From the NCBI RefSeq assembly GCF_001027925.1, contig NZ_LECT01000043.1, forward strand, positions 1 through 64,000: DNA of 64,000 bases, read 5' to 3'. Source of the stretch: Rhodopirellula islandica. Its GTDB lineage: Bacteria; Planctomycetota; Planctomycetia; Pirellulales; Pirellulaceae. The notes beneath the pieces were generated by a model, which saw nothing but the letters and a program-made list of their open reading frames with translations, did not search any database and was not told where the DNA came from. The position numbers and the translations under genes were made by a program. Every line of letters begins with the position of its first letter. Positions within the stretch are counted from its first letter, which is position 1. Shown here one piece after another: positions 1,661-19,496 of the stretch.

Positions 1661-1743
1661 AACAATGTGATGCACGCGAAGCCGGTCTTGCGCGTCTTTT
1701 GAAATGGATGATCACCCGTCCCGGCTCGGTGATCACGGACGTT
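1661..1743 (+). repeat. attC-like site A
   Basis: First palindrome of the array. The left arm from AAC 1661 (GTGATGCACGCGAAGCCGG) pairs with the right arm (CCGGCTCGGTGATCACGG) ending in GTT 1741-1743, with unpaired bases on one arm as in attC. The spacer contains TTTTGAAATGGA. The unit to which its left half belongs is not recognisable in the window. Confidence 0.8.
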
Positions 1744-1754
1744 CCCCGACAAAA

Positions 1755-2291
1755 ATGCCTAAAGTGCGTCCGCAAAAATTGAATTCACTGTGTCTCTGTT
1801 CCTTTGCGCTGTTTTGGCTTTGCGGAACCGGTTGCAATGAGCCTGCTGGTGTTTCAAACCTCGGGAATTCCGCAGCAATTACCGTCGTTCCAACCGTAGA
1901 TGCTGATTCCACCAACGATGATTCGCCTGAAGAGCTCTTGTCGAACGAACAGCAATGGCTAATCGAGATCATCGAGGCCAATAAAGACTACCCACCAGAA
2001 CTCTTGAAGACATGCACCGCCGAGGTAGAAATACTCGTATACAACGATAAATCTGACGAACTTGTTCTCGAAGCGTGGAAGCGAAAGTGGCTACAAGCTT
2101 GTTCGAAATTCGAAATTTCCGGCGGGTGCGGATGCTGTGTGGAACAATACACCGTAACCGGTCCGATCGCCGCAGTCGAAGAATTTCCAACTTCATTGCA
2201 ACGACGCTTTCGGTATCCCCGATACCTCACCGACGTCGACGAGGGCGGGGAACAATCGGATGCACACGAGTCGCCGAGTCGTGGTTCTTGA
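1755..2291 (+). CDS. Cassette 1: predicted lipoprotein, unknown function
   Basis: A 178-residue protein with a basic N-terminus, a hydrophobic stretch and a cysteine at a lipobox-like site (FWLCGTGC), so probably membrane-anchored on the outside. The mature part is acidic and has a cysteine cluster (SGGCGCCVEQ, about residues 126-135). ATG 1755 is used because the longer in-frame ORF starts inside attC-like site A. The last 14 codons read into the left arm of site B. No family recognised. Confidence 0.65.
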   Translation: MPKVRPQKLNSLCLCSFALFWLCGTGCNEPAGVSNLGNSAAITVVPTVDADSTNDDSPEELLSNEQQWLIEIIEANKDYPPELLKTCTAEVEILVYNDKSDELVLEAWKRKWLQACSKFEISGGCGCCVEQYTVTGPIAAVEEFPTSLQRRFRYPRYLTDVDEGGEQSDAHESPSRGS

Positions 2292-2332
2292 AGTGGAGAA
2301 TCTCACGCGGCGACCGCGTGATCCGTACCGTT
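2251..2332 (+). repeat. attC-like site B
   Basis: Arms GATGCACACGAGTCGCCG and CGGCGACCGCGTGATCCG pair between AAC 2251-2253 and GTT 2330-2332. The preceding CGGGG-AAC is the reverse complement of GTTCCCCG that starts cassette 1 at site A. Confidence 0.85.
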
Positions 2333-2350
2333 CGTCGACGCAAGCCTTCC

Positions 2351-2776
2351 ATGACCGCAGTAATGCCAACAATTGAATTCGTTGACGCCACGCGAATCGC
2401 CCATCGCCGATACGCGGTGTTCGCTCTTTATGGACTGTCTGCATTCTGGGGCGTGGCACAGCTTGTCTTTCCCGATCATTCGCTGCTTTACATCGCAAGT
2501 GCAATTGCTTTCGCAACGTCTGCAACACTTTGGTTCACGATCGACCGCCGAATACTCTCGAAGACGCGACTTCCGATCCTGCAGTTGCTCTTCTTTTTCA
2601 CATGGCCTGTCGCATCATTGATTCACTTGCTGTCATCGCGTGGCATCCGTGGCATCGGGCATTGGCTGCTTCATGCCGTAGGCTTGTTCGCGACGATGTG
2701 CTTGACGTTTTTCCCGGCGATGTTCTTGCTATACTGGTTGGGTGTTCTTGAGGTGGACGGCATGACGGAACCATGA
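2351..2776 (+). CDS. Cassette 2: small integral membrane protein
   Basis: A 141-residue hydrophobic protein with about four predicted membrane segments (around residues 22-42, 44-62, 75-92, 105-130). ATG 2351 is 19 bp after site B, and the upstream part of the long ORF lies in cassette 1 and site B. The stop is 8 bp before AAC of site C. No known family recognised. Confidence 0.6.
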   Translation: MTAVMPTIEFVDATRIAHRRYAVFALYGLSAFWGVAQLVFPDHSLLYIASAIAFATSATLWFTIDRRILSKTRLPILQLLFFFTWPVASLIHLLSSRGIRGIGHWLLHAVGLFATMCLTFFPAMFLLYWLGVLEVDGMTEP

Positions 2777-2784
2777 ACGCGACG

Positions 2785-2868
2785 AACCATGGGATGCAAC
2801 GGAGTGGCGGTGGTGCGTTTTTTGGTGAGATCAATGTCGACTCCCGCCACCCGCTGATCCCGACCGTT
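2785..2868 (+). repeat. attC-like site C
   Basis: Arms GGGATGCAACGGAGTGGCGG and CCGCCACCCGCTGATCCC pair between AAC 2785-2787 and GTT 2866-2868. CGACG-AAC complements the start of cassette 2 (GTTCGTCG). Confidence 0.85.
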
Positions 2869-2885
2869 CGCCTTCAAGAAACACG

Positions 2886-3644
2886 ATGGCTGTTCCTGAA
2901 CATATCCATGAATTTCCGCCAGCCCGCACTTTTCGGGAGGACGACCCGACCACGCTCTATTGGATTCGCGGGAACACGATTCTGTATCGCCACTATCCGC
3001 TGAACGGAGCCGACGTTGATTCGTTTTCCTTTTATCTGGGAAGTTTCGCTAAGGATCGCAAGCACTGCTATTGCACAAGCACTCGGCTAACTGGCGGTAT
3101 CGGTGCCGTGTTCCGTGCCCTGAATTTCACCTATGCGACCGACGGAACCTCGGTCTGGACTATGGGGGGAAAGATCAAGGACGCGGATGCCGCGTCGTTT
3201 GTCGTCTGTGATGACGGCGTGCACTACCTCGGTAGCGGATCGCCAGTCCCTTACGGATTCGGCAAAGATAAAAACCATGTCTATTACTACGATTTCGACG
3301 GCAAGCCGAACCGCGTACGCAAGGCGTCGACATCATCGTTTGTTTCATTCAACGACGGGCACTATGGCAAAGACGATTGCTTTGTGTTCTGTGGCACGGC
3401 AACGCTTCCCAAGGCCAAGGTCGAGCACTGGCACAAGATTGGCGGCTACTACAGCAAGGACGATTCTCGCGTCTATTATTTCAATCGCCTAATTCGCGAT
3501 GCAGACTACGACACTTTTGAGCTCGTCGATACCGGTGGTTCCCTGCAAATGGCCAAGGACAAGCATCGGTTCTACGACACGGATCGAGTTGTTACCGAAG
3601 CCGAATTCTTTGACCGGATCGAAAAATACGGCCGAAAAAACTGA
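2886..3644 (+). CDS. Cassette 3: DKNYY-domain protein
   Basis: A 252-residue soluble protein with repeated short units of the type GKDKNHVYYYDF, AKDRKHCYC, SKDDSRVYYF and AKDKHRFYDT, spaced by about 25-40 residues. This is the pattern of DKNYY-family proteins, in which Lys-Asp plus Tyr-Tyr repeats probably build a beta-structure. Function of the family is not established. ATG 2886 lies 17 bp after site C. No signal peptide is evident. Confidence 0.75.
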   Translation: MAVPEHIHEFPPARTFREDDPTTLYWIRGNTILYRHYPLNGADVDSFSFYLGSFAKDRKHCYCTSTRLTGGIGAVFRALNFTYATDGTSVWTMGGKIKDADAASFVVCDDGVHYLGSGSPVPYGFGKDKNHVYYYDFDGKPNRVRKASTSSFVSFNDGHYGKDDCFVFCGTATLPKAKVEHWHKIGGYYSKDDSRVYYFNRLIRDADYDTFELVDTGGSLQMAKDKHRFYDTDRVVTEAEFFDRIEKYGRKN

Positions 3645-3648
3645 GGCG

Positions 3649-3730
3649 AACCAAGGGATGCACGTGAGTCGCCGAGTTGAATTTTTTGAAGTGGTTGATC
3701 GTTCGCGGCGACCACGTGATCCCAAACGTT
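3649..3730 (+). repeat. attC-like site D
   Basis: Nearly perfect arms: GGGATGCACGTGAGTCGCCG against CGGCGACCACGTGATCCC, between AAC 3649-3651 and GTT 3728-3730, with one extrahelical base. AGGCG-AAC complements the start of cassette 3 (GTTCGCCT). Spacer TTTTTTGAAGTGG. Confidence 0.87.
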
Positions 3731-3749
3731 ATCCGAATGAGATCCCTGC

Positions 3750-4034
3750 ATGCCACAAGAACCTGATCCTGACGTGATTCGTCCTGACGACGACCCTGTG
3801 CGCTGGGACATGCTCATGGCCCAAATCACCGAGGCCCACATGCACCTCGGTCAACTCATCACTGAAATCGAAGACAACTCTGCGATCGACGAAATTGATA
3901 CGATGATCCAGCTCGGTCATATCTACGCACACCTGAACCGCTTCTGGCACGGCCGAAACGTCGCCAGTGGCGATATTGATGCACTGTATACTGACGAAAA
4001 CTCCGACTTTCCAAACGACGTTACCCTCTCCTGA
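3750..4034 (+). CDS. Cassette 4: small acidic hypothetical protein
   Basis: A 94-residue, strongly acidic, mostly helical soluble protein (central part QITEAHMHLGQLITEIED). No signal peptide, no cysteine and no recognised motif. ATG is 20 bp after site D. Unknown function. Confidence 0.55.
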   Translation: MPQEPDPDVIRPDDDPVRWDMLMAQITEAHMHLGQLITEIEDNSAIDEIDTMIQLGHIYAHLNRFWHGRNVASGDIDALYTDENSDFPNDVTLS

Positions 4035-4081
4035 GCTCGGCCCGATTCACAATCTGTATGCTTGCACTCCATACGGCGGAT

Positions 4082-4166
4082 AACCATGGCGTGCACACGG
4101 AGCGGGGCTTGCGGCCGGATTTGAAATGGACAACTTTACTCTCCCCGCCCGGTGACGCCGGTCGTT
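4082..4166 (+). repeat. attC-like site E
   Basis: Arms TGGCGTGCACACGGAGCGGGG and CCCCGCCCGGTGACGCCGG pair between AAC 4082-4084 and GTT 4164-4166. CGGAT-AAC complements the start of cassette 4 (GTTATCCG). Confidence 0.85.
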
Positions 4167-4198
4167 ACCCGATAAAGTCTATTTGCATCGAACGCAAC

Positions 4199-4711
4199 AT
4201 GAAAACCCTCGACCTTTTGCGTGACCAGTGCCAGATCCAAGAGTACGTCTGGAATCGGCTGGACAACTATGAACCGGATTGGGATTGGGCGTTGGGTGAT
4301 GCGGACCGAAAAGTGTCCCTAATTGCGACTGGCTTCTCTTTTGAGCAAAACGGATGGTTTTCTATGGTTCTCGACCGCCGGCCGCGCGCTCAGTCGGATG
4401 GTCAATGGCAATCATTGATTGGCCACAACTATCTGCCGATGCCGCACTGGAATCTTGATGACGACTACGAACTCGATGTGAAGCACTACGATCCAAAATG
4501 GAAACCACCCAAGAATGGCTTTGATGATGAGTCCGCAGCCGAACTATTTGGCAATACAATTCGTGATGCGCTCGTTCACATTCGGGATCAAAACGGATTT
4601 GCATTCAACTTTTTAGCTCGTAACTGCGCTTTCTTTGTGGAGGAACACGAAGGCCGTTTCGGTTGGCCGGAATACAAGGAAACGCGTACTGCCGGTCGGT
4701 GCAGACCATAG
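4199..4711 (+). CDS. Cassette 5: hypothetical protein
   Basis: A 170-residue soluble protein, rich in Asp, Trp and Tyr, with no recognised family. ATG 4199 is preferred because the upstream part of the ORF overlaps site E. The segment NFLARNCAFFVEEH (about residues 141-154) is the most distinctive stretch. It ends 11 bp before AAC of site F. Confidence 0.55.
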   Translation: MKTLDLLRDQCQIQEYVWNRLDNYEPDWDWALGDADRKVSLIATGFSFEQNGWFSMVLDRRPRAQSDGQWQSLIGHNYLPMPHWNLDDDYELDVKHYDPKWKPPKNGFDDESAAELFGNTIRDALVHIRDQNGFAFNFLARNCAFFVEEHEGRFGWPEYKETRTAGRCRP

Positions 4712-4722
4712 CGGCGACGGGT

Positions 4723-4804
4723 AACCAATGCGTGAACCGGAGCACGCGAGCTCGCCTTTTGGCAATGGAAAATCTTTCGCGCGTGCCCGGTTACGCGTAC
4801 CGTT
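4723..4804 (+). repeat. attC-like site F
   Basis: Arms ATGCGTGAACCGGAGCACGCG and CGCGTGCCCGGTTACGCGT pair between AAC 4723-4725 and GTT 4802-4804. CGGGT-AAC complements the start of cassette 5 (GTTACCCG), even though this core differs from its neighbours. Confidence 0.86.
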
Positions 4805-4838
4805 ATCCGACTGAAAACCGCACGCCGGAACCGCCACG

Positions 4839-5291
4839 TTGATTCGCAACACTCACCATGATCTGCTCCTCATCGGCGACGCGATCAATGCCCGTGACTT
4901 GCGACAACTCTACGACCGCAACATCTCCGCCGTGGTTGACCTTGCCGCCAACGAATCCCCCGCACAACTTGGCCGCGACATCATCTACTGCCGATTCCCA
5001 CTCCACGACGACGGATCGAACTCGCCGCAACTGATTCGCACCGCAATCACCGCCCTGTATTCACTTTTGACTGACGGCTTCCCCACGCTTGTCGCTTGTT
5101 CCGCTGGCATGAGTCGTTCGCCCGTCATCGCCTCCGCTGCTTTGTCGCTAATTTGTGACTGTTCGCTCGACGATTCACTTTCCGAAATAGTCCGTGACTC
5201 ACCGCACGACATCTCTCCTGCGCTGCTGTCGTCGGTCGCGTCGATTCACACTACGATGATTCAATCCAACGTATCCCAAAACGGCGGATAA
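4839..5291 (+). CDS. Cassette 6: dual-specificity-phosphatase-like protein
   Basis: A 150-residue protein with a PTP/DSP signature ACSAGMSRSPV (about residues 88-98), the CX5R phosphate-binding loop with Ser after Arg. An aspartate-containing loop LHDDGSNS (about residues 55-62) may supply the general acid. The usual His before the catalytic Cys is Ala here. The start appears to be TTG 4839, as no in-frame ATG precedes the conserved region. The TAA stop overlaps AAC of site G. Substrate unknown. Confidence 0.72.
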   Translation: MIRNTHHDLLLIGDAINARDLRQLYDRNISAVVDLAANESPAQLGRDIIYCRFPLHDDGSNSPQLIRTAITALYSLLTDGFPTLVACSAGMSRSPVIASAALSLICDCSLDDSLSEIVRDSPHDISPALLSSVASIHTTMIQSNVSQNGG

Positions 5292-6290: not shown

Positions 6291-7769
6291 ATGACATTCA
6301 GGGAGTCGGATGACCGAATAGTACCGCAGAAGCTTGAAGTCCAATCAGGTGGAATGAAGCCGGGTAATGCTGGCGAAGGGAAGGCGGTCAGGCCAACACG
6401 CGTCCAAGACGCCGAGTCGCCCACACTCAGGGGCGGGAGTACGGTTCTGGATCGTCTTGAACGCATCACCGAAAGAGCGAAGACGCATCCCGAAGAGGTT
6501 TTCAATAACCTCTTTTCGCTGCTCAATTACGAGTTGCTGTGGTATGCGTTTCGCCGACTGAAGCGAGGGAAAGTGCCGGGGGTCGATGGCGTGGCGGTGG
6601 AAGATTACGAGGAGGATCTGGAGGGCAACCTTCGTGGCCTGCTCGATCGACTTCATCGTGGCAGCTATCGCCCGAACCCAAGCTTGCGAAAGAACATCCC
6701 GAAAGGGAATGGGAAAACGCGACCTCTGGGGATCGCTTGCGTGGAAGACAAGCTCGTTCAGCGAGCGATGGTGATGGTCCTCGAGCGGATCTACGAAGTC
6801 GACTTCTACGACTTCTCGTATGGATTCCGTCCGCAGCGATCATGCCACCAAGCGTTGTCGGCACTCGGTCAAAGCATCGCGACCGAGAAAGTGAACTGGA
6901 TCAGTGACGCAGACATCGAAGGCTTCTTCGACAACGTGTGTCACGAGAGCCTCTTGGAGCTGTTGCAAGTTCGCATCAGCGACCCCAAGCTGCTCGCTCT
7001 GATCAAGCGTTTTCTCAAAGCAGGTGTGATGATCGAAGGCAAACTGGAAGCAACCGACGAGGGCGTTCCACAAGGTTCGAGCCTCTCTCCGCTGCTTGCG
7101 AATGTGTACCTGCATCACGTGTTGGACGTTTGGTTCGAACGTGAAATGAAGCCACGACTGCAAGGACAAGCGACTCTGATTCGGTATGCGGATGACTTCA
7201 TCTGCTGTTTTGAATTGGAATCGGATGCGCGGAGATACCAAGCGGTCCTGCCGAAACGACTTGCCCGGTATTCGCTGTCAGTCGCCCAGGAGAAGACGAA
7301 GTTGCTCCGATTCGGTCGTTTTGCCCAGCGTGATTCCAAACGCTGGGGCGAAGGGCCTCCGGGAACTTTTGACTTCCTGGGATTCACTCATTACTGCGGG
7401 CGCAGCCGCGCTGGAAAGTTCAAGCTGAAACGGAAGACGTCGGGGAAGAAGTATCGGCAGAAGGTTGTGGAACTGCGTCGCTGGTTCAAGAGTCAGTTGG
7501 ACGTTCCGATCGGCGAGATGTGGCAGACCCTTAACGCGAAGCTTCGCGGTCACTACCAGTACTACGGTATCAATGACAATTGGCCGATGCTGATGGCGTA
7601 CCGCAACAAGGCCCGCGTGTTGGTCAAGCGTCACCTCAGTCGTCGGAGCCAAAGCAGCTACGTGAACTGGACGCACCTGGCCCGTCTGTGCGAGCGACAT
7701 CCCTTGTCGAATCCGCGGCAGCTCACGGACCTGATCGCGATGTCTCGTGCGTCGGTGAGTGCTGTGTGA
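6291..7769 (+). CDS. ltrA: Group II intron reverse transcriptase/maturase
   Basis: A 492-residue intron-encoded protein. Visible RT blocks: IPKGNGKTRPLGIACVEDKL (about 136-155), YGFRPQRSCHQAL (177-189), DADIEGFFDNV (206-216), GVPQGSSLSPLLANVYL (258-274), YADD catalytic motif (299-302) and FLGFTHYCGR. The X/thumb (maturase) region follows with LRGHYQYYGI. No C-terminal HNH endonuclease is visible, so it would depend on target structure or replication for priming. An alternative start is M22. All catalytic residues checked are intact. Confidence 0.95.
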   Translation: MTFRESDDRIVPQKLEVQSGGMKPGNAGEGKAVRPTRVQDAESPTLRGGSTVLDRLERITERAKTHPEEVFNNLFSLLNYELLWYAFRRLKRGKVPGVDGVAVEDYEEDLEGNLRGLLDRLHRGSYRPNPSLRKNIPKGNGKTRPLGIACVEDKLVQRAMVMVLERIYEVDFYDFSYGFRPQRSCHQALSALGQSIATEKVNWISDADIEGFFDNVCHESLLELLQVRISDPKLLALIKRFLKAGVMIEGKLEATDEGVPQGSSLSPLLANVYLHHVLDVWFEREMKPRLQGQATLIRYADDFICCFELESDARRYQAVLPKRLARYSLSVAQEKTKLLRFGRFAQRDSKRWGEGPPGTFDFLGFTHYCGRSRAGKFKLKRKTSGKKYRQKVVELRRWFKSQLDVPIGEMWQTLNAKLRGHYQYYGINDNWPMLMAYRNKARVLVKRHLSRRSQSSYVNWTHLARLCERHPLSNPRQLTDLIAMSRASVSAV

Positions 7770-7816: not shown

Positions 7817-7937
7817 TGAGAGGGGCCGAGGGTCAATGCGGCATGGTTAGAATATTGTGACACCACCACAGGAAACCCGTGGCAAACAGGGAACACAAAC
7901 CCTAACCTAAACCAAAGAGACCTCGGTCTACTCGCCC

Positions 7938-9157: not shown

Positions 9158-10198
9158 ATGCGATTTCGCGTATCCCTTCGGACGCTCCTGGCATTGACGA
9201 CGTTACTCTGTGTTGTCGGGGGTCTTGCATTTCTACGGCTTAAAGCTGAACGCAATGCTGAAGAACAGCTAGTGGCCGACGGGTTGGCAATATCGTTCGA
9301 TCCCTGGGGAAATCGCGGTAGATATTGGTACAACGACCCGGAGATTGAACAAGAGAACGCGAGTGAGACATTACTAGGCAGGCTAAATTGGGAACTGCTC
9401 AGGCATGTGCGATGTGTCGACGGGCAACGCAGTGCAACCGAGGCTGACACGGCTTCCACCGTTGACGACAACTCGCTTCGCTCGCTTGAAAGCCTACGGC
9501 ATGTGGAGATTTTATATCTCGGATTTCAGCCAATTACAGATTTGGGCTTAGAGTCACTGCGGTACCTTCATTCCCTGAAACACCTCAATCTCTGCGGAAC
9601 GAAAGTCTCCGACGATGGGCTGGCAAATATCACCAACCTCGACGCACTAGAGTATCTAGCCCTTGAATTTACCATCATTACTGACAGTGGCTTAAAGTAC
9701 CTTGATGGCTTTGAGAACCTAGAAGAGCTTTCCCTAATGGGGACCAAGATAAAAGGTCCAGGCTTGTCGCATCTTGTGCGACTGGCGTCACTTCGGCGAC
9801 TCGGGCTTTCCGGCACTGCTGTGCGATCAGACGACCTGCTGCACCTTTCCAGCCTTGCTTCCTTGGAAAACCTTAGTCTTTCAAATACAAAGATCGACGA
9901 TTCAGCTTCCATTCATCTATCGAAGCTATCAACGCTGAAAAAACTCAACGTTGCAGAGAATAGGCTGTCCGATGAATTCCTCGTGGAGCTTTCAGCGTTG
10001 TCGAGTATTGAGAGCTTAAACATCAGTGGCACTGACGTAACCGATCGTTCCGAGAGCGTCATTCTAGGTTTTCCTAATCTTTCAAATTTCTACGCATCTG
10101 ACACTTCGATGAGCGCGGAATGCCGGGCACGAATCGGTGACTTTGTGAGACGCAACAGATACAAAGGATATTCTGCAATAGGTCGTAACGGCGGATAA
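9158..10198 (+). CDS. Cassette 10: leucine-rich repeat protein with N-terminal membrane segment
   Basis: A 346-residue protein. Residues 1-29 form a basic start and a hydrophobic segment, giving an anchor or uncleaved signal. From about residue 105 to 320 there are eight or nine LRRs of 23-25 residues (pattern LxxLxxLxLxxTxIxDxGLxxL), typical of planctomycete LRR proteins. Probably a binding protein; the partner is unknown. The TAA stop overlaps AAC of site K. This is the largest cassette cargo. Confidence 0.85.
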   Translation: MRFRVSLRTLLALTTLLCVVGGLAFLRLKAERNAEEQLVADGLAISFDPWGNRGRYWYNDPEIEQENASETLLGRLNWELLRHVRCVDGQRSATEADTASTVDDNSLRSLESLRHVEILYLGFQPITDLGLESLRYLHSLKHLNLCGTKVSDDGLANITNLDALEYLALEFTIITDSGLKYLDGFENLEELSLMGTKIKGPGLSHLVRLASLRRLGLSGTAVRSDDLLHLSSLASLENLSLSNTKIDDSASIHLSKLSTLKKLNVAENRLSDEFLVELSALSSIESLNISGTDVTDRSESVILGFPNLSNFYASDTSMSAECRARIGDFVRRNRYKGYSAIGRNGG

Positions 10199-10206: not shown

Positions 10207-10991
10207 ATCGGGATAGGGGCCCGGTTGCCCGGGCCCCCTCCCACACCACCTAGCATGCGGGACCGCACTAGGCGGTTGAGCACGAGTTTCAAATCAGCGC
10301 GTCGCCGCGATGACCCAAGCCATTGGACCGACAGCTTCGCCGCTAAGAGATTGCCATACGGCAACGGCTCCTTCGCGAGATGAAGTCGATACGTGCTTGC
10401 TCGTTCCCTTCAGGCCTTCGCGTCGCCGTTGGTTTCGGCGGATCGCTACTATGCCCTCTGCTGACTTCTCTTTGCACGGGCATACGATACCGCATTCCGC
10501 CCCGCCTTTTGGGCAAGCCCTACTCACGGGTACGCATCGAGATCTCCCCGAAGAAGGGACGTCCTTGATCGCTCAAGGACACGTGATCTGTCCCCGCCCA
10601 AGTGCTTGATCTACCTCCGCTCAGAACTCCAGCAAGGCATCCGCCGGGCTTCCGGTTCGGCTTCTCGGTCAGCAAGCCACTGTGATCCAGGGAATCGCTC
10701 CGCGACGGGCCTGGAGTCGTCGGCCTCGTATCAAGTTTCTGTACGTCACCTGGCGGGTCTTGGCGAGAAGATGTCCAGCGACGATTCTTTGCTCGCTTAC
10801 CGATCATCTTCGCAGGCTTCCTCCCCACGTTATTCACCTCCCCGCAGTTGCTCCGGGTGGCTTGGGGAATGGCCTCGTACTGTCTTTCTCCAGAGTTACA
10901 TTTGGTAGACTGCCTCGTCGGGAAAGAAACCGGAACTAAGTACAGGGGACTTGCACCCCACAAGATCACGCCCATGTTGGGCGTACTGCAC
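10207..10991 (-). mobile_element. ORF-less group II intron, copy 1, in attC-like site K
   Basis: Read on the - strand, it begins near GTGCAGTACGCCCAACATGG, followed by the intron-like segment TGGGGTGCAAGTCCCC. It ends with a domain V-like hairpin (CCGCCTAGTGCGG to CTAGGTGG), a GC-rich domain VI with a bulged A and CCTATCCCGAT. Length is about 785 bp with no RT frame; the short ORFs in it are translated structural RNA. It is closely similar to the copy at 16291. Exact ends are uncertain by about 5 bp because TGCAC may be shared with the host site. Confidence 0.75.
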
Positions 10992-11522: not shown

Positions 11523-11607
11523 AACCATGAAATGCACGTGAGGACGGGTGGTCGGTTTTCTCGTCTGCTTGCAAGTCTTTCGCCCGTCCCACGTGATTTC
11601 CAACGTT
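11523..11607 (+). repeat. attC-like site L
   Basis: Arms GAAATGCACGTGAGGACGGG and CCCGTCCCACGTGATTTC pair between AAC 11523-11525 and GTT 11605-11607. AGGGG-AAC complements the start of cassette 11 (GTTCCCCT). Spacer TCGTCTGCTTGCAAGTC. Confidence 0.87.
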
Positions 11608-11650
11608 CTGGCACTCGGAACTACGCAAAGTTGATCCTCTCCATTACAGC

Positions 11651-12274
11651 ATGGACATCCGAATGAACATGAGTTCTCTCCCCCTGCTCTTACCGATAGC
11701 GACGCTAGTTGTCGTGGCGATCGGGCAGCTAGACGCGGGTGATTATCACGCTAGTGGATACTCGAAAGGACCGCATATCGAAAGTGGATACTTTGGCGGT
11801 GACTTTGACTTCTCCGTTGAGGCGCAACCCACATCAGAGACTGAACGACGATTTCTTTCGCTCCTAATCTCAACTCGTGATCTTAACCAGCCAACCCTCG
11901 CGTTCAGCATTATTCGCGATAACACCATTGCCAAGGCTGAAGTGACAGATGCCTACTACAGCAAAACGCACGGAGTCGCCGCCTGGACATTTCGAGTCAC
12001 GATAGACGGGCACCCTACAACTCTCATCTACCAAGTTAAAGACAACGGTGACGGTAAATTCACAGATGTACTTGCGATTGCCAACCGCGCGATCAATTTA
12101 CATGAGGGACGGTTGATTGTGATCGGAACACTCGATGACGAGGGTGCCCTCGACCGAGTCTCACAAACAGGTTGTCGGGATGACATGAAGTTCATCGTGA
12201 AAATGAAACAGCGCTTCCGTCGGGATCTCAACGCATTCAATGCGGATATGGACGACTGGGAGCCAGAACCATGA
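11651..12274 (+). CDS. Cassette 12: exported hypothetical protein
   Basis: A 207-residue protein with an N-terminal signal-like hydrophobic segment (about residues 8-25), then a soluble domain without cysteine clusters. No family recognised. ATG 11651 is 44 bp after site L; a second ATG at 11663/11669 is possible. It ends inside the first bases of site M. Confidence 0.6.
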   Translation: MDIRMNMSSLPLLLPIATLVVVAIGQLDAGDYHASGYSKGPHIESGYFGGDFDFSVEAQPTSETERRFLSLLISTRDLNQPTLAFSIIRDNTIAKAEVTDAYYSKTHGVAAWTFRVTIDGHPTTLIYQVKDNGDGKFTDVLAIANRAINLHEGRLIVIGTLDDEGALDRVSQTGCRDDMKFIVKMKQRFRRDLNAFNADMDDWEPEP

Positions 12275-12362: not shown

Positions 12363-12782
12363 ATGCGACACCTCACTCTCCTCGCCGTCGTGGCCATGAT
12401 GGCCGGATGTATTGGCGACTCAGCCCTGCCGGTTGTGTCATCGACACCGTTACCGGGGACTAATGCTACGGTGGACCTTGGAGGTCCGGATCCCAAAGGG
12501 CGTTACCACTACTACATTCAATCTCCAAGCGGTAAATTTACGCACCGGTTCCTCGGACCACTGCCAACCAAAACCTCAACGCCTGCTTCTGTCCAAACGC
12601 TCACCGATGGTCAGATTCGCATACAATGGGGACCGGATGAACGTGTCTACTGCATTGTTAATGTCGACAACGCAACTATCGTTCGTGACACGAACCGAGC
12701 AAACCCGGAGAATGTCCGGACCGACACAATAGCTTCCCCTGCTTCCCAAGAATCGACCTTTCACACTAACAACGATGGGTAA
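12363..12782 (+). CDS. Cassette 13: predicted lipoprotein
   Basis: A 139-residue protein. The hydrophobic N-terminus ends in a good lipobox (VAMMAGC, Cys at about residue 16), followed by a Ser/Thr/Pro-rich region and a small beta-rich domain. No family recognised. The TAA stop overlaps AAC of site N. Confidence 0.62.
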   Translation: MRHLTLLAVVAMMAGCIGDSALPVVSSTPLPGTNATVDLGGPDPKGRYHYYIQSPSGKFTHRFLGPLPTKTSTPASVQTLTDGQIRIQWGPDERVYCIVNVDNATIVRDTNRANPENVRTDTIASPASQESTFHTNNDG

Positions 12783-12864
12783 CCACTGCGTGAACCGGAG
12801 CACGCGAGCTGAGCGATTTGGCCGTTAGAAACTTTCCCGCGCGTTCCCGGTTACGCGTACCGTT
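12781..12864 (+). repeat. attC-like site N
   Basis: Arms TGCGTGAACCGGAGCACGCG and CGCGCGTTCCCGGTTACGCG pair between AAC 12781-12783 and GTT 12862-12864. GGGT-AAC complements the start of cassette 13 (GTTACCC). Spacer GATTTGGCCGTTAGAAACT is shared with site P. Confidence 0.85.
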
Positions 12865-12902: not shown

Positions 12903-13433
12903 TTGAATTTCACTTTGGACCAACGCATACATGACATACTCGCTGTTGGGCGACCTGGGCGTGAGACCGACCGTGCAATTGAGACAGTTGCCCTCGGTGT
13001 ACGTTGTGCTGACGAACTTGGCGATCGACATTTTGACTCCTGCCATCTTTTGCCCGGGCTTTACCGTGAACCGGATGGCATCGCTCATCATGTGCTCGAT
13101 GGCCTTGGTATTACGCTTCAACAAATCGACGACGCGGTATCCGCGCGCGACCACATTTCTACCGACGCCGATTTCACGATTGACGACGATATTCGTCTCG
13201 TGTTCTCGAACGCATTTGCCGCCGCCGACGAAATGTGGCACAGCTATATCGGCACCGAACACTTAATGATTGGCGTTGTCGCGGACGGAACCAAATCTGC
13301 TAGGATGTTGGCTGAATTTGGGTACACCGGATCCCAGGTGACGAAGGAGGTCCACGACATCCTTGGATGCTTCGGCGTCTTCAAATGGATACCGGTCGTG
13401 CTCCGCAGATTGCGGCCACGACGAACCATGTGA
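12903..13433 (+). CDS. Cassette 14: Clp N-terminal-domain-like protein
   Basis: A 176-residue protein that resembles a free-standing Clp N-domain (double ClpN repeat), as in the N-terminus of ClpA/ClpC. The second repeat is clearest: SYIGTEHLMIGVVADGTKSA (about residues 114-133). The first is around DSCHLLPGLY. No ATPase domain follows. Related stand-alone domains often act as adaptors, but that is only a suggestion here. Start TTG 12903 fits the conserved region; no ATG is available. The C-terminus reads into site O. Confidence 0.7.
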   Translation: MNFTLDQRIHDILAVGRPGRETDRAIETVALGVRCADELGDRHFDSCHLLPGLYREPDGIAHHVLDGLGITLQQIDDAVSARDHISTDADFTIDDDIRLVFSNAFAAADEMWHSYIGTEHLMIGVVADGTKSARMLAEFGYTGSQVTKEVHDILGCFGVFKWIPVVLRRLRPRRTM

Positions 13434-14018: not shown

Positions 14019-14370
14019 GAACCTAATCGCTTCTCTCCGGTGCATTTCTGGGTATGCAACCTGGTCTTGATTGACACGCATCCTGCGTGAGAAAGTGTTG
14101 GCGTCCCTGCCAACTCCGTTCCTTCAATCGCTTGACCGATTACTCTGTCCTGTCGGACATGCAGTCTGCCGCGCGATCGCGCGTGCGTCCCATCTCAGCT
14201 TGGATGGCAATGCGTGGGCCCGGGGACAACTCAACGGAGCCCTCGCCGAGCGGGCGACGGTTAAAATGGTTGTAGGACTTGCGCTTTTCTGTTTCGCAAG
14301 CACTGTGGAATGCTTCCGCACACTGAACTCTCGGAGTGCGATGTTTCCATCCTGCTTTGAGACAAATGCA
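14019..14370 (+). other. Leader region of the recombinase unit, no convincing gene
   Basis: 352 bp between site P and the recombinase remnant. A frame in phase with the recombinase stays open from 14071, but its sequence is basic, Cys-containing and not domain-like, so I do not call it coding. No promoter or repeat recognised. Confidence 0.4.
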
Positions 14371-15313
14371 ATGACTTCCTCCGACAAGCATCCCTGCCAG
14401 CTGATTCGCCGAATGGCCGAGGACATGCTCATCCGAAACATGGCCCCCGCGACCATCAAGGCCTACACCTACCACGCCAGAAGGTTTGCCGGCTTCATCG
14501 GTAAACCGCTCGACGAGGCAACCGTCGAAGACGTTAGAACCTTCCAGCTTTACCTGATCCAAGAGAAGAAGGTCGCCTATAGCTCATTCAACCAAGCCGC
14601 CAGAGCTTGCTGGGAATAGCGGCGCGCTACGGTTTCTGTACAAGCACACCATCCGGGTCCCTTGGCCCGTCGCGATGGTTCCCTTCGGGAAACGGCCCAA
14701 GACCTTGCCGATCGTGCTCAGCCGTCACGAAATCGACAAGCTGCTTCAATGCACGCCCAACCTGAAACACCGAACCTTCCTGATGACGCTCTACTCGGCC
14801 GCACTCCGGTTCTCCGAAGCAGCCCACCTAAGGATCGCCGACCTCGATTCGGATCGGATGATGATTCATGTCCGACACGCCAAGGGAGCCAAGGATCGGC
14901 TCGTGCCGCTCTCGCCAAGACTCTTGACCGAGTTGAGGGTTTACTGGAAGAAGTACAGGCCGGCCGACCTGCTGTTCCCCGGCAACTCAGCGACCAAGAC
15001 CTACGCCGACACGTCGATTCAAAAAGCCATGAAACGGTCTGCCGAGAAAGCGGGAATCAAGAAACGGGTGTATACGCATGTGCTCAGGCACTCTTACGCG
15101 ACCGGACTGCTAGAAGCCGGCGTGGACTTGCTGACGATCAGCAAGTTGCTCGGGCACGCAAGTTTCGTCACGACGATGATCTACCTGCACTGCCGACGCG
15201 AGCACCTGCACAGTGTCCCCAGCCCACTGGATTGGTTGCCGGTGAAACAACTGCCAACGTATCAACCGCCCCAAGAGAACAACGGAAACCCGGAGACCAA
15301 CAGCCCAAGCTAA
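14371..15313 (+). pseudogene. Frameshifted XerC/D-like tyrosine recombinase
   Basis: ATG 14371 begins a SAM-like N-terminal domain (LIRNMAPATIKAYTYHARRF) in one frame, which hits TAG at 14617-14619 just after FNQAA. The same protein continues in another frame from about 14628 (ALRFLYKHTIRVPWP) to TAA 15311-15313 with R (AALRFSEAAHL), K (HAKGAKDRL), HxxR (HVLRHSYAT), H (LGHASFVTT) and Y (TMIYLH). A small insertion near 14605-14625 explains the break. It is a different recombinase from the one at 584. It belongs to a unit bounded by site P and a short attC-like site, so it looks like cassette cargo. Confidence 0.82.
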
Positions 15314-15547
15314 GTCTCACCGAGATCCTGCGGCTGCCCGTGGTGGTATGCCGAACTTCGACACGAGTCGCATCGGAAGTTCTGGGCGGAGTCCTATGGA
15401 GAGGACTTTCACGATTGGTACCTGCAAACTCAGGTAGAAAGTGCAAAGGAACGCGAGCAAGATCGCCCACCGGCGATTCAGCTGTCGCTACCCGGCCTTG
15501 CCGCTTCCCGGGCATACCAAGAATCGTATCTGGTAGACTCTTACTAG
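15314..15547 (+). pseudogene. ORF remnant in frame after the recombinase stop
   Basis: The frame stays open for 77 codons after the recombinase TAA and encodes a protein-like sequence (CPWWYAELRHESHRKFWAES, then IQLSLPGLAASRAYQESYL). No start codon of its own is obvious. It could be the tail of an accessory or transposase-linked gene. Family not recognised. Confidence 0.35.
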
Positions 15548-15569
15548 CGAATCAGGCGTCCTGATTCGC
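15547..15569. terminator. Perfect 10-bp hairpin after the recombinase remnant
   Basis: GCGAATCAGG, loop CGT, CCTGATTCGC. It starts on the last base of the remnant's stop codon. Only TT follows the stem, so it is a weak terminator candidate; it could also be an element-end hairpin. Confidence 0.4.
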
Positions 15570-15602
15570 TTCCCCGCCCACCCCAGTGCGGCGACAAAGT
15601 TC

Positions 15603-15645
15603 AACGCACGATCTATGCATGCACCTCCATAGATCGCAATTCGTT
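15603..15645 (+). repeat. Short attC-like site ending the recombinase unit
   Basis: A 43-bp palindrome from AAC 15603 to GTT 15643-15645 with stem CGATCTATG/CATAGATCG. The preceding GTTC-AAC complements the start of this unit at site P (GTTGAAC). GTTCGCCGAC then begins the toxin-antitoxin unit. Much shorter than the other sites but consistent in both cores. Confidence 0.5.
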
Positions 15646-15771: not shown

Positions 15772-15981
15772 ATGACACTGCAAGAATCTCTCCGCGCTTT
15801 ACCGCCAGACCAGAAACTCGCGATTGTAACGGAACTTTGGAACGACTTAGCTGTTTCCGCACCGCTGACGCTGCCGTCCGATGAACTTGCAGAAATGCAA
15901 CGACGACGTGACGAAATGCTAGCAGACCCGTCGATTGCGATTGATTCCGACGAGGTTTGGCGACGTGTCGATGGCGACTGA
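15772..15981 (+). CDS. Cassette 17: antitoxin, addiction-module component (TIGR02574-like)
   Basis: A 69-residue acidic protein matching small addiction-module antitoxins of the TIGR02574 type: N-terminal helix ALPPDQKLAIVTELWNDL, then a C-terminal polar helix with paired Arg (AEMQRRRDEML) and WRRVDG. In known systems the N-terminal part binds operator DNA and the C-terminal part blocks the toxin. It overlaps the toxin gene by 11 bp, so translation is probably coupled. AGAGGG upstream of ATG 15772 is a likely ribosome site. It likely has its own promoter, unlike most cassettes. Confidence 0.8.
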   Translation: MTLQESLRALPPDQKLAIVTELWNDLAVSAPLTLPSDELAEMQRRRDEMLADPSIAIDSDEVWRRVDGD

Positions 15982-16282
15982 ACGCTACCATCCGCTTTTC
16001 GCCGTTGATCTCGCAGATGCCTGTCTGCACTACGATACGATTGGCCCCGACCTTGGCAATCGTTTTCGCGCGAACGTCCGCTCAATCATTCGATCCGTTG
16101 CTGAACGTCCAGAATCGTTTGGCAAAGTGGGTGGTGACTTCCGTGGTGCTTTAGTTGATCGCTTTCCCTACGTCGTTGTCTTTGCCGTTGATGGCAACAT
16201 CCCTTCGATTTTTGGTCTTCGACATGCCGCATCTGACCGTTGCGACTGGTTCACCCGATCTATGCCCGGCGCAAACGGATAA
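15971..16282 (+). CDS. Cassette 17: RelE/ParE-family toxin
   Basis: A 103-residue protein with the RelE/ParE layout: N-terminal helix pair (FAVDLADACLHYDTIG), a core with RSIIRSVAERPESFG, then strands with RFPYVVVFAVDG and a final IFGLRHAASD. ATG 15971 overlaps the antitoxin; a GTG two codons upstream is possible. Whether it cuts mRNA or poisons gyrase cannot be told. The TAA stop overlaps AAC of site Q. Toxin-antitoxin pairs are known to stabilise large integron arrays, which fits this setting. Confidence 0.8.
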   Translation: MATERYHPLFAVDLADACLHYDTIGPDLGNRFRANVRSIIRSVAERPESFGKVGGDFRGALVDRFPYVVVFAVDGNIPSIFGLRHAASDRCDWFTRSMPGANG

Positions 16283-16290: not shown

Positions 16291-17185
16291 ATCGGGATTG
16301 GGGCCCGGTTGTCCGGGGCCCCTCCCACACCACCTTGCATGCGGGACCGCACGAGGTAGGTCGGCAAGAGTCTTTCGGCTTTTGGACTGTTTCGGTAAGC
16401 GTCGTTGCTCCCACGTACAACCGGGGCGAACGCCCAAACGGCTCACATGATGATGCCCGATCATTCCTGCCGAGGAGGTCGAGTATGAGTTTCAAATCAG
16501 CGCGTCGCCGCGATGACCCAAGCCATTGGACCGACCGCTTCGCCGCTAAGAGATTGCCCTCCGGCAACGGCTCCTTCGCGAGATGAAGTCGAACCGTGCT
16601 TGCTCGTTCCCTTCAGGCCTTCGTCGACCACCGGGGCCGACTACGATGCCCTCTGCTGACTTCTCTCTGCACGGGCATACGTTGCCGCATTCCGCCCCGC
16701 CTTTCGGGCAACCCCTACTCACGGGTACGCATCGAGATCTCCCCAAATAAGGGACGTCCTTGATCGCTCAAGAACACGTGATCTGTCCCCGCCCAAGTGC
16801 TTGATCTACCTCCGCTCAGAACTCCATCAAGGCATCCGCCGGGCTTCCGGTTCGGCTTCTCGATCAGTAGCCCACTGTGATCCAAGGGATCGCTCCGCGA
16901 CGGGCCTAGAGTCGTCGGCCTCGTATCAAGTTTCTGTACGTCACCTGGTGGGTCTTGGCGAGAAGATGTCCAGCGACGATTCTTTGCTGGCTTACCGATC
17001 ATCTTCGCAGGCTTCCTCCCCACGGTTTGTCACCTCCCCGCAGTTGCTCCGGGTGGCTTGGGGAATGGCCTCGTACTGTCTTTCTTCAGAGTTACATTTG
17101 GTAGACTGACTCCTCGAAAAAAACCGGAACGAAGTACAGGGGACTTGCACCCCATAAGATCACGCCCATGTCGGGCGTACTGCAC
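16291..17185 (-). mobile_element. ORF-less group II intron, copy 2, in attC-like site Q
   Basis: Highly similar to the copy at 10207-10991, in the same orientation against the cassette genes, including the TGGGGTGCAAGTCCCC segment near its 5' end, domain V/VI and the 3' end CCCGAT. It is about 110 bp longer because of an insertion before domain V that contains a dispersed palindromic repeat (16412-16474). Beside domain V, CTACC replaces CCGCC, so pairing may be altered. No reverse transcriptase gene. Confidence 0.75.
16412..16474. repeat. Dispersed repeat inserted in intron copy 2
   Basis: ACAACCGGGGCGAACGCCC, then AAACGGCTCACATG and GATCATTCCTGCCGA. Nearly the same sequence occurs at 52940-53001. 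Here only half of the full palindrome seen there is present. Confidence 0.7.
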
Positions 17186-17258
17186 ACGGAGTCGGTCTTG
17201 CGAGCGATTTGGCAATGGACACCTTTCCCCCCCGCGCCCCGTGACGGGCACGATCATT
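17186..17258 (+). repeat. attC-like site Q, right half, right core lacks GTT
   Basis: GGAGTCGGTCTTGCGAGCG and a right arm CCCGTGACGGGCACGATC are followed directly by ATTTG. Comparison with CAAAT-AAC at the end of this cassette (site R) predicts GTTATTTG, so exactly GTT seems deleted. The spacer GATTTGGCAATGGA is conserved. Confidence 0.55.
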
Positions 17259-17262
17259 TGAT

Positions 17263-17796
17263 ATGGATATGAATATCGCCAATCGCTTTCTCGTCTCCGC
17301 ATGCTGTTTGCTCTGCGGCTGCGCTCCTGGGAGCGAATCAGCGCCGCTGGCGACCGTCTCAGTTGTGACGATGCTCGAATCAGTCAATGAGGCGAGGGTC
17401 ATGTCTGTGTCGGACGTTGAAACCGTCGTCAACAATGCCGCGAGCTCAAAACGTGCAATCGTTTTTGTTTACGTGGGGTGGGCACCTATGCGTCCGCAAC
17501 TCGACCGTTTCGCCGAACTTGCTATCCGGTGGGGCGAAATCCATCCGACTGATCCAATTGGATTCCATTTCGTTGACTTTACAAACGTGAGCAACGACTA
17601 CCAGCCGCTTACGTCCCTTCCTGGGTGGCCCACACGCGAAGGGCGTCCGTATCCTGAACGATTAGGCGGATGGGGAGAACTTGTCTGGATTCGCAACGGT
17701 CGTATCGATCATATTCAGACGGCACTGGACTTTCCAACAGTTGACCCGCTCGTCCATCTGACCTCGAGCCTATTTGCGCACCAAACTTACAAATAA
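17263..17796 (+). CDS. Cassette 18: lipoprotein with thioredoxin-like fold, no active-site CxxC
   Basis: A 177-residue protein with signal and lipobox ACCLLCGC (Cys at about residue 20). Residues about 62-85 (AIVFVYVGWAPMRPQLDRF) look like the first strand and helix of a thioredoxin, with WAPMRP in place of WCxxC. The redox cysteines are missing, so any role is likely binding or structural. The fold call is inference from pattern. The TAA stop overlaps AAC of site R. Confidence 0.6.
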   Translation: MDMNIANRFLVSACCLLCGCAPGSESAPLATVSVVTMLESVNEARVMSVSDVETVVNNAASSKRAIVFVYVGWAPMRPQLDRFAELAIRWGEIHPTDPIGFHFVDFTNVSNDYQPLTSLPGWPTREGRPYPERLGGWGELVWIRNGRIDHIQTALDFPTVDPLVHLTSSLFAHQTYK

Positions 17797-17870
17797 CATT
17801 GCCGTGGACCAGAGTCGCAAGTTTTGGCAACGACAAAATCTTTCGACGCGTCCCGGTTACCGCCAGCGTT
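17795..17870 (+). repeat. attC-like site R
   Basis: A shorter palindrome (76 bp): TGCCGTGGACCAGAGTCGCAAG against TCGACGCGTCCCGGTTACCGCC, from AAC 17795-17797 to GTT 17868-17870. It is preceded by CAAAT. Confidence 0.75.
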
Positions 17871-17890
17871 CGCCCGACGAAGTTGAAGAC

Positions 17891-18160
17891 TTGAATCCGT
17901 ACGATCCGCCCGAAGCAGACGACACTGGGCAACCTGTAGAGAAGTCCTCAGAGCAGCGGATAAGCATGCCGTTCCGTATCGGGCTTGGAATTTTCGCGGT
18001 GTTGATGTTCGCATGCACAATTGACGCAATCGTGGACTTGGCGATGCATTTCCAGTTATTGGCCGCATTGCAAATATTCATGGTGTGCGAATTGACCCAA
18101 TTGATGGCGTCGCTTGCAATCACCGGCAGAGGCGGGTGGACTTTAAGCATTTACCTTTAG
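17891..18160 (+). CDS. Cassette 19: small membrane protein with N-terminal NPYDPP motif
   Basis: An 89-residue protein from TTG 17891, chosen because it puts NPYDPPEADD at the N-terminus, as in cassette 15, and lies 20 bp after site R; the longer frame crosses site R. Two membrane segments (around 28-48 and 52-75). Function unknown. Confidence 0.55.
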   Translation: MNPYDPPEADDTGQPVEKSSEQRISMPFRIGLGIFAVLMFACTIDAIVDLAMHFQLLAALQIFMVCELTQLMASLAITGRGGWTLSIYL

Positions 18161-18224
18161 TCGCGTTTGCCTGCTTTGGTCAAGTAGACATCACCACTGC
18201 TTCACACCACCAAGAACCGCGGCG

Positions 18225-18305
18225 AACCATCCATGCAATCGAGCGGCGAAATCGGGCGTTTTAAAATGGAAGATAGACCGTCGCCGCCGGCTGATCGGAA
18301 CCGTT
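18225..18305 (+). repeat. attC-like site S
   Basis: Arms CATCCATGCAATCGAGCGGCGA and TCGCCGCCGGCTGATCGG pair between AAC 18225-18227 and GTT 18303-18305. GGCG-AAC complements the start of cassette 19 (GTTCGCC). Spacer TTTTAAAATGGA. Confidence 0.85.
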
Positions 18306-18322
18306 CGTCGACCGGAGATTCG

Positions 18323-18757
18323 TTGACCCCTTACGCATCGTCCACGTCTATAGGTAAAACAAGCGAACGCAAGGCGTCCGCTCCGCAAAACGCCTGCCCG
18401 ATTTGTGAGCAACGTTTTCCTCGGACACGACGTTACACAGCTTCATTTCGTTGCTCGAGGTGCGAAACAAGAATTGGTTTCAAGCCCCGACTCAAATACA
18501 CCTTGCCGGCACTGATTGGCTGTTCCGTTCCCTGGATTGCTTTGTGGATCTGCGTGAAAAATGATCCCTCGCAGCTTTCGGTTCTAGGACTTTGGCTCAT
18601 GGTGCCGCCAATTCCGACGTTCTTCGGAGCAATGTTCGTGTCTCAAGCATTCGGGAAGCCCACAGCATACAATGGTTTGTGGTGGGCCTCTGCTGATGTA
18701 GCGGACGCTTGGCGTTCAGAGTGGAAAAGTCACGACGAACCAAGCGATGGACGCTGA
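18323..18757 (+). CDS. Cassette 20: zinc-ribbon membrane protein
   Basis: A 144-residue protein from TTG 18323 (start MTPYASSTS, similar to the NPYxxP starts). Two CxxC pairs (CPIC about residue 25, CSRC about residue 44) suggest a zinc ribbon on the cytoplasmic side, followed by two membrane segments (about 61-80 and 86-110). The C-terminus reads into site T. No family recognised. Confidence 0.58.
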   Translation: MTPYASSTSIGKTSERKASAPQNACPICEQRFPRTRRYTASFRCSRCETRIGFKPRLKYTLPALIGCSVPWIALWICVKNDPSQLSVLGLWLMVPPIPTFFGAMFVSQAFGKPTAYNGLWWASADVADAWRSEWKSHDEPSDGR

Positions 18758-18819
18758 ACCGCCGACAACGCGTTTTCAAATGGATGATCGATCGCGGCGG
18801 CCCGGTCATCGCAAACGTC
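18738..18819 (+). repeat. attC-like site T, right core GTC
   Basis: Arms GCGATGGACGCTGAACCGCCG and CGCGGCGGCCCGGTCATCGC pair from AAC 18738-18740. The right core reads ACGTCC, so GTT has become GTC. CGACG-AAC complements the start of cassette 20 (GTTCGTCG). Confidence 0.8.
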
Positions 18820-18837
18820 CTGCCACTGAAAGCTTTC

Positions 18838-19110
18838 ATGAGTGACACTTCCAAGCGAAAACAGGAGTCTCGCGTGACCTACGGTTCGGAAGTGGACTGG
18901 ACCGAAGTTCAGCGAGTAGAACGCGATATTTGCCTGCTGTACCATCAGTTGGCCGATTACTCGTACATCATGGGGGACCTCTGTTACGGCGATGTATTCT
19001 CGCTTCCCTACTGGGAGTATCTGCAGATAGAAGAATTGGAATCCGATCAGGCCGTTTCATTTGCGACGGATGCTTGGTCATGCTCTACGCCATGGCACTC
19101 GATGTTCTAG
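18838..19110 (+). CDS. Cassette 21: hypothetical protein, N-terminal part of a likely frameshifted gene
   Basis: From ATG 18838 the frame encodes a soluble helical protein (SEVDWTEVQRVERDICLLYH). Near 19070 the coding sense seems to shift to another frame, and this frame ends with an odd tail at 19110. Together with the next entry it would give one protein of about 180 residues. A sequencing error, a real frameshift or two overlapping genes are all possible. Confidence 0.5.
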   Translation: MSDTSKRKQESRVTYGSEVDWTEVQRVERDICLLYHQLADYSYIMGDLCYGDVFSLPYWEYLQIEELESDQAVSFATDAWSCSTPWHSMF

Positions 19111-19373
19111 ACGACAGCGGAAACTACTTGACGATGGATCGCGATCGTTACAACGCTATTAAAAGTGCCGTGGATTGCCTACAACCCAATGGCCACGATA
19201 CGGATCGGCTTGCATCCGCTTTGAAGAAATTGTTTCAAGAGATCGATCGCAACCCCTCGAAAATGGAGGGGTCGGTATATTTAATGGACGAAGTTACCGA
19301 TATGACATGGGTCCACGAACACTTCGTTCAACGCTATTTCACTGAACGAGCAAGTAGGTTCCCGCAGAGATGA
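19080..19373 (+). CDS. Cassette 21: hypothetical protein, C-terminal part or overlapping gene
   Basis: ATG 19080 opens a 97-residue helical frame (MLYAMALDVLDDSGNYLTMD) that overlaps the previous ORF by 31 bp and ends 40 bp before site U. No recognised motif. Either the downstream half of a frameshifted gene or a second translationally coupled protein. Confidence 0.5.
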   Translation: MLYAMALDVLDDSGNYLTMDRDRYNAIKSAVDCLQPNGHDTDRLASALKKLFQEIDRNPSKMEGSVYLMDEVTDMTWVHEHFVQRYFTERASRFPQR

Positions 19374-19413
19374 CAAAACGTCCCGCAGATCCAGTACAGC
19401 CATCGCAAAGCAG

Positions 19414-19496
19414 AACAATCCGATGCACGGGAGCGGCGAAGTCACGTTGTTTGACAATGGAAACTCCCTCGCCGCCGCCCCGTGATCAGTGACGTT
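19414..19496 (+). repeat. attC-like site U, last full site of the array
   Basis: Arms CCGATGCACGGGAGCGGCGA and TCGCCGCCGCCCCGTGATCAG pair between AAC 19414-19416 and GTT 19494-19496. GCAG-AAC agrees with the mutated start of cassette 21 (GTCCTGC) except for the T to C change. Confidence 0.84.

Follow-up and report, generated by a model that had tools for sequence, protein, structure and literature searches.

What are the 21 long palindromes that alternate with small genes near one end of contig C43, and which enzyme would move the units between them? The window analyzed here is the first 64 kb of this contig, which belongs to a draft genome of 7.43 Mb in 55 contigs. At positions 1661-19496 it contains 21 attC-type sites of one family, named A to U from left to right. 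It is very likely that they are the attC sites of a Rhodopirellula-type chromosomal integron, and that the small genes are cassettes. Their capture, excision, and re-insertion are likely the work of an integron integrase (IntI) with an N-terminal extension, whose gene is on another contig.

An earlier note on this sequence described 21 palindromes of 76-85 bp, each running from AAC to GTT. All 21 are present, and the 18 uninterrupted sites are 76-85 nt each. The description does not hold for T, which ends in GTC, for Q, which has no right-end GTT, or for H, K, and Q, which are split by group II introns. The sites are as follows; the ends of H, P, Q, R, and S were placed by eye.

1661..1743, plus strand: attC A, 76.4 bits; its left neighbor is an IS91-like element ending at ~1659
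2251..2332, plus strand: attC B, 90.8 bits
2785..2868, plus strand: attC C, 81 bits
3649..3730, plus strand: attC D, 95.2 bits
4082..4166, plus strand: attC E, 68.8 bits
4723..4804, plus strand: attC F, 92.2 bits
5290..5371, plus strand: attC G, 88.4 bits
5832..8003, plus strand: attC H, intron-split, with halves of 16.3 and 26.9 bits
8496..8577, plus strand: attC I, 86.8 bits
9057..9139, plus strand: attC J, 79.5 bits
10197..11062, plus strand: attC K, split by a minus-strand ORF-less intron; the joined flanks score as attC
11523..11607, plus strand: attC L, 80 bits
12267..12351, plus strand: attC M, 54 bits, with a weak fold (-21 kcal/mol)
12781..12864, plus strand: attC N, 78.2 bits
13424..13507, plus strand: attC O, 81.5 bits
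13935..14018, plus strand: attC P, 78.8 bits
16281..17253 (end approximate), plus strand: attC Q, split by a minus-strand ORF-less intron, without the right-end GTT; the joined flanks score as attC
17795..17870, plus strand: attC R, 51.6 bits
18225..18305, plus strand: attC S, 81.9 bits
18738..18819, plus strand: attC T, 68.4 bits, with the core GTC instead of GTT
19414..19496, plus strand: attC U, 83.1 bits, the right end of the array

A covariance model was built from the 18 intact sites of the window. At E ≤ 1, it found 30 matches in the window and C31:1-20000 (22 in the window and eight in C31). The earlier note had considered that palindromes equally common away from cassettes would speak against an integron; no match at this threshold was found in the window at 19600-64000. 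In the whole genome, at least 81 matches on 13 contigs were found at E ≤ 0.01 (19 in the window and 62 elsewhere, the best at 3.7e-21), a lower bound because 150 of the 2566 candidates were scored.

The two arms of the stem covary. In a plain MAFFT alignment, not fitted to the model, 13 of the 15 stem pairs show double changes that preserve pairing. In an alignment of 87 matches, which was fitted to the model and includes pieces of split sites, 92.7% of the cells pair, and the covariation is 0.746, compared with 0.183 ± 0.012 after shuffling and at most 0.123 after sliding. The number of pair types, a less telling measure, was 43 against 38.5 in shuffles, and 10 of 500 shuffles were as high. 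A cruder count of pairs changed on both sides in the same 87 rows gave 14 against a shuffle mean of 13.1 and did not beat the shuffles.

AAC is at its expected place in 79 of these 87 rows and GTT in 75. The base before GTT is C in 74 of 75, and the majority R' core is GTT(A/C)NCCGAC. On the top strand the first extrahelical base is G and the second is A, so that the bottom strand reads T-N6-C; among the 75 rows in which a TG can be read, 60 have the A at N6 (12 at N5, 6 at N7, and 11 at N8). The extra unpaired bases that the earlier note saw on one arm thus correspond to two extrahelical bases of the bottom strand, six apart. The anatomy of attC, with a paired stem, an unpaired central spacer, extrahelical bases on one arm, and AAC/GTT cores, is present. 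The paired stem and the extrahelical bases are described for attC in the consulted parts of PMC2727003 and PMC3053210, and the latter reports that both T-N6-G and T-N6-C sites are excised well by IntI enzymes. Sequences of the attC E type (4082-4166) are seen at 89-99% identity in many genomes of the same genus, with matches limited to the site; judging from these matches, the site may be exchanged separately from its gene.

Only one IntI above the cut-off is encoded in the genome, at C31:4954-6294 (446 aa; TIGR02249, 467.8 bits against a cut-off of 265). By both sequence and fold, its best solved chain is IntI4 (2a3v), and the predicted structure is of moderate quality (pLDDT 81.7, pTM 0.54). 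The IntI family model begins at residue 121, leaving an N-terminal extension of ~120 residues, in which residues 11-90 are predicted to be mostly helices (pLDDT 86-96). The Foldseek listing, with IntI4 first and then Xer and other recombinases, gives no aligned ranges and is uninformative on the extension. A Pfam search of residues 1-108 gave nothing above the cut-off, and a duplicated core-binding domain was not supported (hhalign probability 0.6%).

The extension is not specific to Rhodopirellula. Among the 120 best-scoring relatives, a set biased to full length, 112 have a query cover of at least 90%, and several named genera are included. It is not universal in the family either, as some strong IntI frames are ~345-375 aa. 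Relatives from other phyla align from about residue 100 onward. An IntI of R. baltica is 95% identical, and the IntI relatives place the host in or near Rhodopirellula.

Eight attC sites at C31:82-3903 form an array in cis with intI and are oriented so that they read away from it. The region upstream of intI is homologous to sequences in two complete genomes of the same genus, G174 (97.9%, and 92.5% for a second attI copy there) and G130 (89%). Compared with three loci in these two genomes (pieces over 250 nt), the homology stops at C31:4347-4351, and no piece over 250 nt in C31:1-4346 matches the stretches of G174 or G130 compared. This break at an AAC/GTT core indicates, by comparison, the attI junction. 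The second attI of G174, with a 5' piece of intI, is at C1:4914284-4914656 (L162), ~144 kb from the first, and is followed by more sites.

The open reading frames (ORFs) assigned to units are on the plus strand, in agreement with the earlier observation that nearly all units read rightward. The following cassettes and cargo were recognized.

2869..3648, plus strand: cassette C-D, with a DKNYY-family ORF at 2886-3644
4165..4722, plus strand: body of cassette E-F, with whole-length relatives in genome G150
4803..5289, plus strand: cassette F-G, with a phosphatase-like ORF at 4839-5291 (DSPc below the cut-off, Tc-R-P just above)
9158..10198, plus strand: cassette J-K, leucine-rich-repeat ORF
11606..12266, plus strand: body of cassette L-M
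12903..13433, plus strand: cassette N-O, Clp_N-domain ORF
15772..16282, plus strand: toxin-antitoxin-like pair, Unstab_antitox (PF09720) at 15772-15981 and a ParE-like ORF at 15968-16282
18818..19413, plus strand: body of cassette T-U, with an interrupted reading frame

The toxin-antitoxin content mentioned in the earlier note amounts to this one pair, in which the antitoxin is above its cut-off and the ParE-like partner is below. Cassette E-F is 98.2% identical to a sequence in G150 over 558 of 558 nt, and a second copy there is 96.7% identical over 552 nt. Both copies are flanked by attC on each side. With the flanks included, one alignment, near a contig end, covers 4082-4814, and the other covers 4163-4821, starting a single base ahead of the GTT of E and reaching 17 bases beyond that of F. 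The IntI of G150 and that of C31 are 34.5% identical over residues 1-436. Such similarity of E-F despite IntI proteins only ~35% identical indicates that cassettes moved as units, and it is likely from this comparison that E-F moved recently. A true IntI, a conserved attI, the attC anatomy, and a whole cassette common to another species bear out the integron identity that the earlier note had proposed.

Other units also have relatives. T-U is 93.9% identical to a sequence in G091, and the chromosomal genes right of the array are 68-71% identical to those of that genome (stretches of at least 480 nt). The relative of L-M in G174 (88%) is ~6 kb from the IntI of that genome. Relatives of F-G and T-U (75%) are ~0.8 kb apart in G045, compared with 13.5 kb here, and B-C has a relative in G045 at 76%. 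Among the 20 units between A and U, long relatives (blastn, >120 nt, E ≤ 1e-8) were found for E-F, F-G, H-I, L-M, T-U, and parts of P-Q. For another 13 units, no relatives were found in the relative loci compared, attC and introns aside, as would be expected of a fluid array, though limited sampling would have the same effect.

G174 and G130, which are single contigs, have one strong IntI each (E ≤ 1e-100) and at least 54 and at least 36 sites, respectively (E ≤ 1e-4, 150 candidates scored in each). In our grouping, the sites fall in about ten places in G174 and nine in G130, of which four and one are single sites. In the family, 199 genomes were surveyed at the same thresholds, with up to 10 IntI candidates and 21 site candidates scored per genome. 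A strong IntI was found in 99 of them. The search with a covariance model, suggested by the earlier note, was productive beyond the window, with at least 62 sites in this genome and attC-type sites in 175 of the 199. Sites are present in 96 of the 99 genomes with IntI versus 79 of the 100 without (Fisher 1.1e-4). In the genus g3, none was found in G002, G069, G102, G121, G145, or G153, and two were found in G135.

Contig C43 ends within a repeated element, 1.66 kb to the left of site A, and linkage of the window array to intI in cis is a possibility. The right flank of the window is 330 kb from IntI in G174 and 157 kb in G130, and the orientation is consistent in both.

Three sites of the array are interrupted by introns.

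10207..10986, minus strand: group II intron of 780 nt without an ORF, in the bottom strand of attC K, with a domain-V-like hairpin and a domain-VI-like hairpin with a bulged A
16291..17180, minus strand: second copy of this intron, 890 nt, located in attC Q; where it aligns with the K copy, the two are 93% identical
~5847 to 7928-7936 (ends approximate), plus strand: intron splitting attC H
6291..7769, plus strand: reverse transcriptase (RT)/maturase of the H intron, single-copy

The K and Q introns have Rfam matches for D1-D4, and RF00029 matched neither of them. Their domain-V-like hairpin covaries in the alignment, and fold and alignment give a final hairpin with a bulged A followed by seven nucleotides. 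Further copies or pieces are on C25, C55 (three), and C23, and the copies within the genome are 92-96% identical. By eye, all readable ends of those further copies abut attC-like sequence, one of them (C55a) without the usual spacer. Exons were also counted by eye, in the own loci and in relative loci picked because they bear introns. The five-prime exon ends in TGCA in 20 of 26 cases, pointing to insertion next to the extrahelical base, at the GTGCA| of the L'' box, and the three-prime exon has the R'' GTT within 12 nt in 22 of 24. Joined intron flanks score as attC in 15 of 15 cases.

Neither the K nor the Q copy encodes RT. In G192, six intron copies in six different attC sites are 99-100% identical, and their near identity indicates that the spread is likely recent, though none encodes RT. 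Matches to RT at E ≤ 1e-8, many of them partial, number one in the own genome, one in G130, eight in G192, ten in G045, and none in G174 or G180. Among the relative loci examined, RT ORFs adjoin ends of K/Q-type introns in G045 only, and none is complete.

Several observations weigh against an integron served by the C31 integrase and its introns as described so far. No IntI was found within the 64-kb window. The classical R' core GTTRRRY is seen in only 2 of 75 sites, in line with the earlier remark that the family does not resemble the standard attC consensus; that consensus is treated as varying between integrons and not as essential. Sites Q (no right GTT), T (GTC), and M (poor fold) are damaged. 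No attC was found at the right flank of the window in the two complete same-genus genomes (G174 4970001-5110000 and G130 1460001-1480000; E ≤ 0.01, 160 kb). As sites occur in 79 of 100 genomes lacking a strong IntI, they are no proof of a working integrase. No attC was detected beside the T-U relative in G091 (L241 7216-7807), where homology stops at the attC border; this gene, with attC here and none detectable there, is possibly a case of cassette birth or decay. As for the introns, displaced control joins also scored as attC in 15 of 15 cases, lower than the true join in 14 (own_C55a was unchanged). This control is weak since most of attC lies on the five-prime side, and the true join adds the R'' arm. 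The only strong RT of the genome is that of the different intron in H.

Some of these points would fit a dead array, in which relic attC cassettes are no longer moved by IntI but passed on by inheritance, while introns and IS91-like elements slowly erode them. The window without IntI, the three damaged and three split sites, the own intron copies that are not fresh at 92-96% identity, and the same flank without an array in two relatives are all consistent with such decay. Against it, the IntI reading frame on C31 is intact, the covariation and the extrahelical spacing have been maintained, and the presence of E-F at 98% in a genome with a distant IntI makes a recent movement of this cassette likely. 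We consider a dead array unlikely, but it is an alternative of some weight.

Another candidate enzyme is encoded next to the array, in the first of two recombinase-bearing elements of the window.

1..1659, minus strand: IS91-like element cut by the contig end, with a transposase at 3-569 (199.9 bits, cut-off 125) and a tyrosine recombinase at 584-1630
14261..15616, plus strand: remnant of a second recombinase-bearing element, in unit P-Q

The recombinase at 584-1630 is the nearest one and its element directly adjoins site A, so that the palindromes might be its substrates and not those of an IntI. This is highly improbable. The protein scores 159 bits, below the IntI cut-off of 265, and adjoins the IS91 transposase, and for these reasons it was rejected as IntI. 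Eight further copies of the element with its tyrosine recombinase were found, seven in G174 4750001-4970000 and one in G130 1480001-1660000, and no recognizable attC follows four of the eight. Moreover, the true IntI adjoins the C31 array. All nine copies inspected end at ...GCGGCTTACTT|GAAC, and in five of them GAAC is the R'' box of attC; three of the four copies off attC have one flank in common. From these junctions, attC cores may be landing sites of the element. The 88 bp at window 1573-1660, before site A, are also the end of C47 (26113-26200), which adjoins another attC, and it is likely that the assembly breaks at copies of this element.

The idea that the palindromes are ordinary intergenic repeats, such as REP-like sequences or terminator hairpins, accounts for their position between small ORFs and has practically no probability left, given that no match was found at E ≤ 1 in 19600-64000 or at E ≤ 0.01 over 160 kb of chromosome in relatives, and given the extrahelical bases on one arm, an attC-bounded unit common to two genomes, and the presence of IntI and attI.

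We therefore return to the chromosomal integron with its integrase on C31. Following the known mechanism of IntI, the protein would bind the folded bottom strand of attC via the two extrahelical bases, T-N6-C, and recombine it at G|TT, the partner being attI or a second attC. The window array would either be the continuation of the C31 array, the two being separated by a gap that IS91-like repeats left in the assembly, or be a remote array served in trans. The orientation of C31, gap, and C43 as one array fits in both relatives, yet the flank there is without sites. The ORF-less introns of K and Q, which sit on the bottom strand at GTGCA|, would be a second mobile layer, likely moved by RTs supplied in trans. 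We infer, and do not observe, the activity of the array, its linkage in cis, and the mobility of the introns. A wider proposal, for which we would give somewhat less than an even chance, is that in this planctomycete family one extended IntI serves many unlinked arrays around the chromosome, and that a lineage of RT-less introns came to home to a new target in the bottom-strand hairpin of attC, made up of the L'' box and the extrahelical base. They would spread in trans between arrays and species, switching individual cassettes off and possibly on again by splicing or loss.

Two other features were observed in the window. A long inverted repeat, MITE-like, is at 19617-19747 just right of the array, and pieces of it are at many places in G091 and several in G174. 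Two matches to the Acido-Lenti-1 small RNA (RF01687) above the gathering score are at 58789-58834 and 59037-59082.

Integrons and attC sites of Planctomycetes are already known, such as the IntI of R. baltica (PMC3108266) and an attC model for Planctomycetes (PMC8352920). These are from the same phylum, and the consulted parts of both papers do not give the array layout, the core, the N-terminal extension, or introns. The array resembles the sedentary chromosomal superintegrons of the Vibrio type in its IntI family, attI by intI, tandem cassettes with attC in one orientation, mostly unknown cargo, and a toxin-antitoxin-like pair. It differs from them in the core, GTT(A/C)NCCGAC instead of GTTRRRY, in the bottom-strand T-N6-C instead of the usual T-N6-G, in the IntI ~120 residues longer at the N terminus, and, in two complete relatives, in the spread of the sites over nine or ten places, some of which hold just one, with a single strong IntI per genome. 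Like CALINs (attC clusters lacking integrase), the window array has no IntI beside it; unlike them, it belongs to a genome with one IntI, to which it may be linked in cis across the gap where the contig ends on the left.

The introns resemble group IIC-attC introns, which, according to the consulted parts of PMC7923331 and PMC4424553, lie 3' of the attC hairpin on its bottom strand and are oriented against the cassettes. Most of those are inserted at TTGT|T in R'' (PMC7923331, same limit), in contrast to GTGCA| in L'' for the K/Q type. The K/Q introns also have no RT gene and are in several copies per genome, unlike group IIC-attC introns with a class C RT in domain IV. ORF-less introns are called rare in bacteria in the part of PMC4424553 consulted. 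No earlier description of an RT-less intron at TGCA| in the attC L'' box was found in a literature search, which was without subscription papers on class C introns and IntegronFinder.

The array is well supported as a chromosomal integron and belongs to a known kind, from which it clearly departs in the core of its sites, the integrase, and the intron content. Unusual here are the non-GTTRRRY cores, one strong IntI with nine or ten site places in two complete relatives, and RT-less introns at TGCA| in L''. Integrons have been studied mainly in Proteobacteria. A planctomycete family whose core differs and whose integrase is often longer offers an independent test of what IntI needs, and raises the question of whether T-N6-C with a GTTNNCC core needs an extra N-terminal domain. 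The intron family, which interrupts attC sites at precisely the same position, provides a natural set for direct tests of how group II introns target folded attC. How cassettes acquire or lose attC may be approached through the T-U gene.

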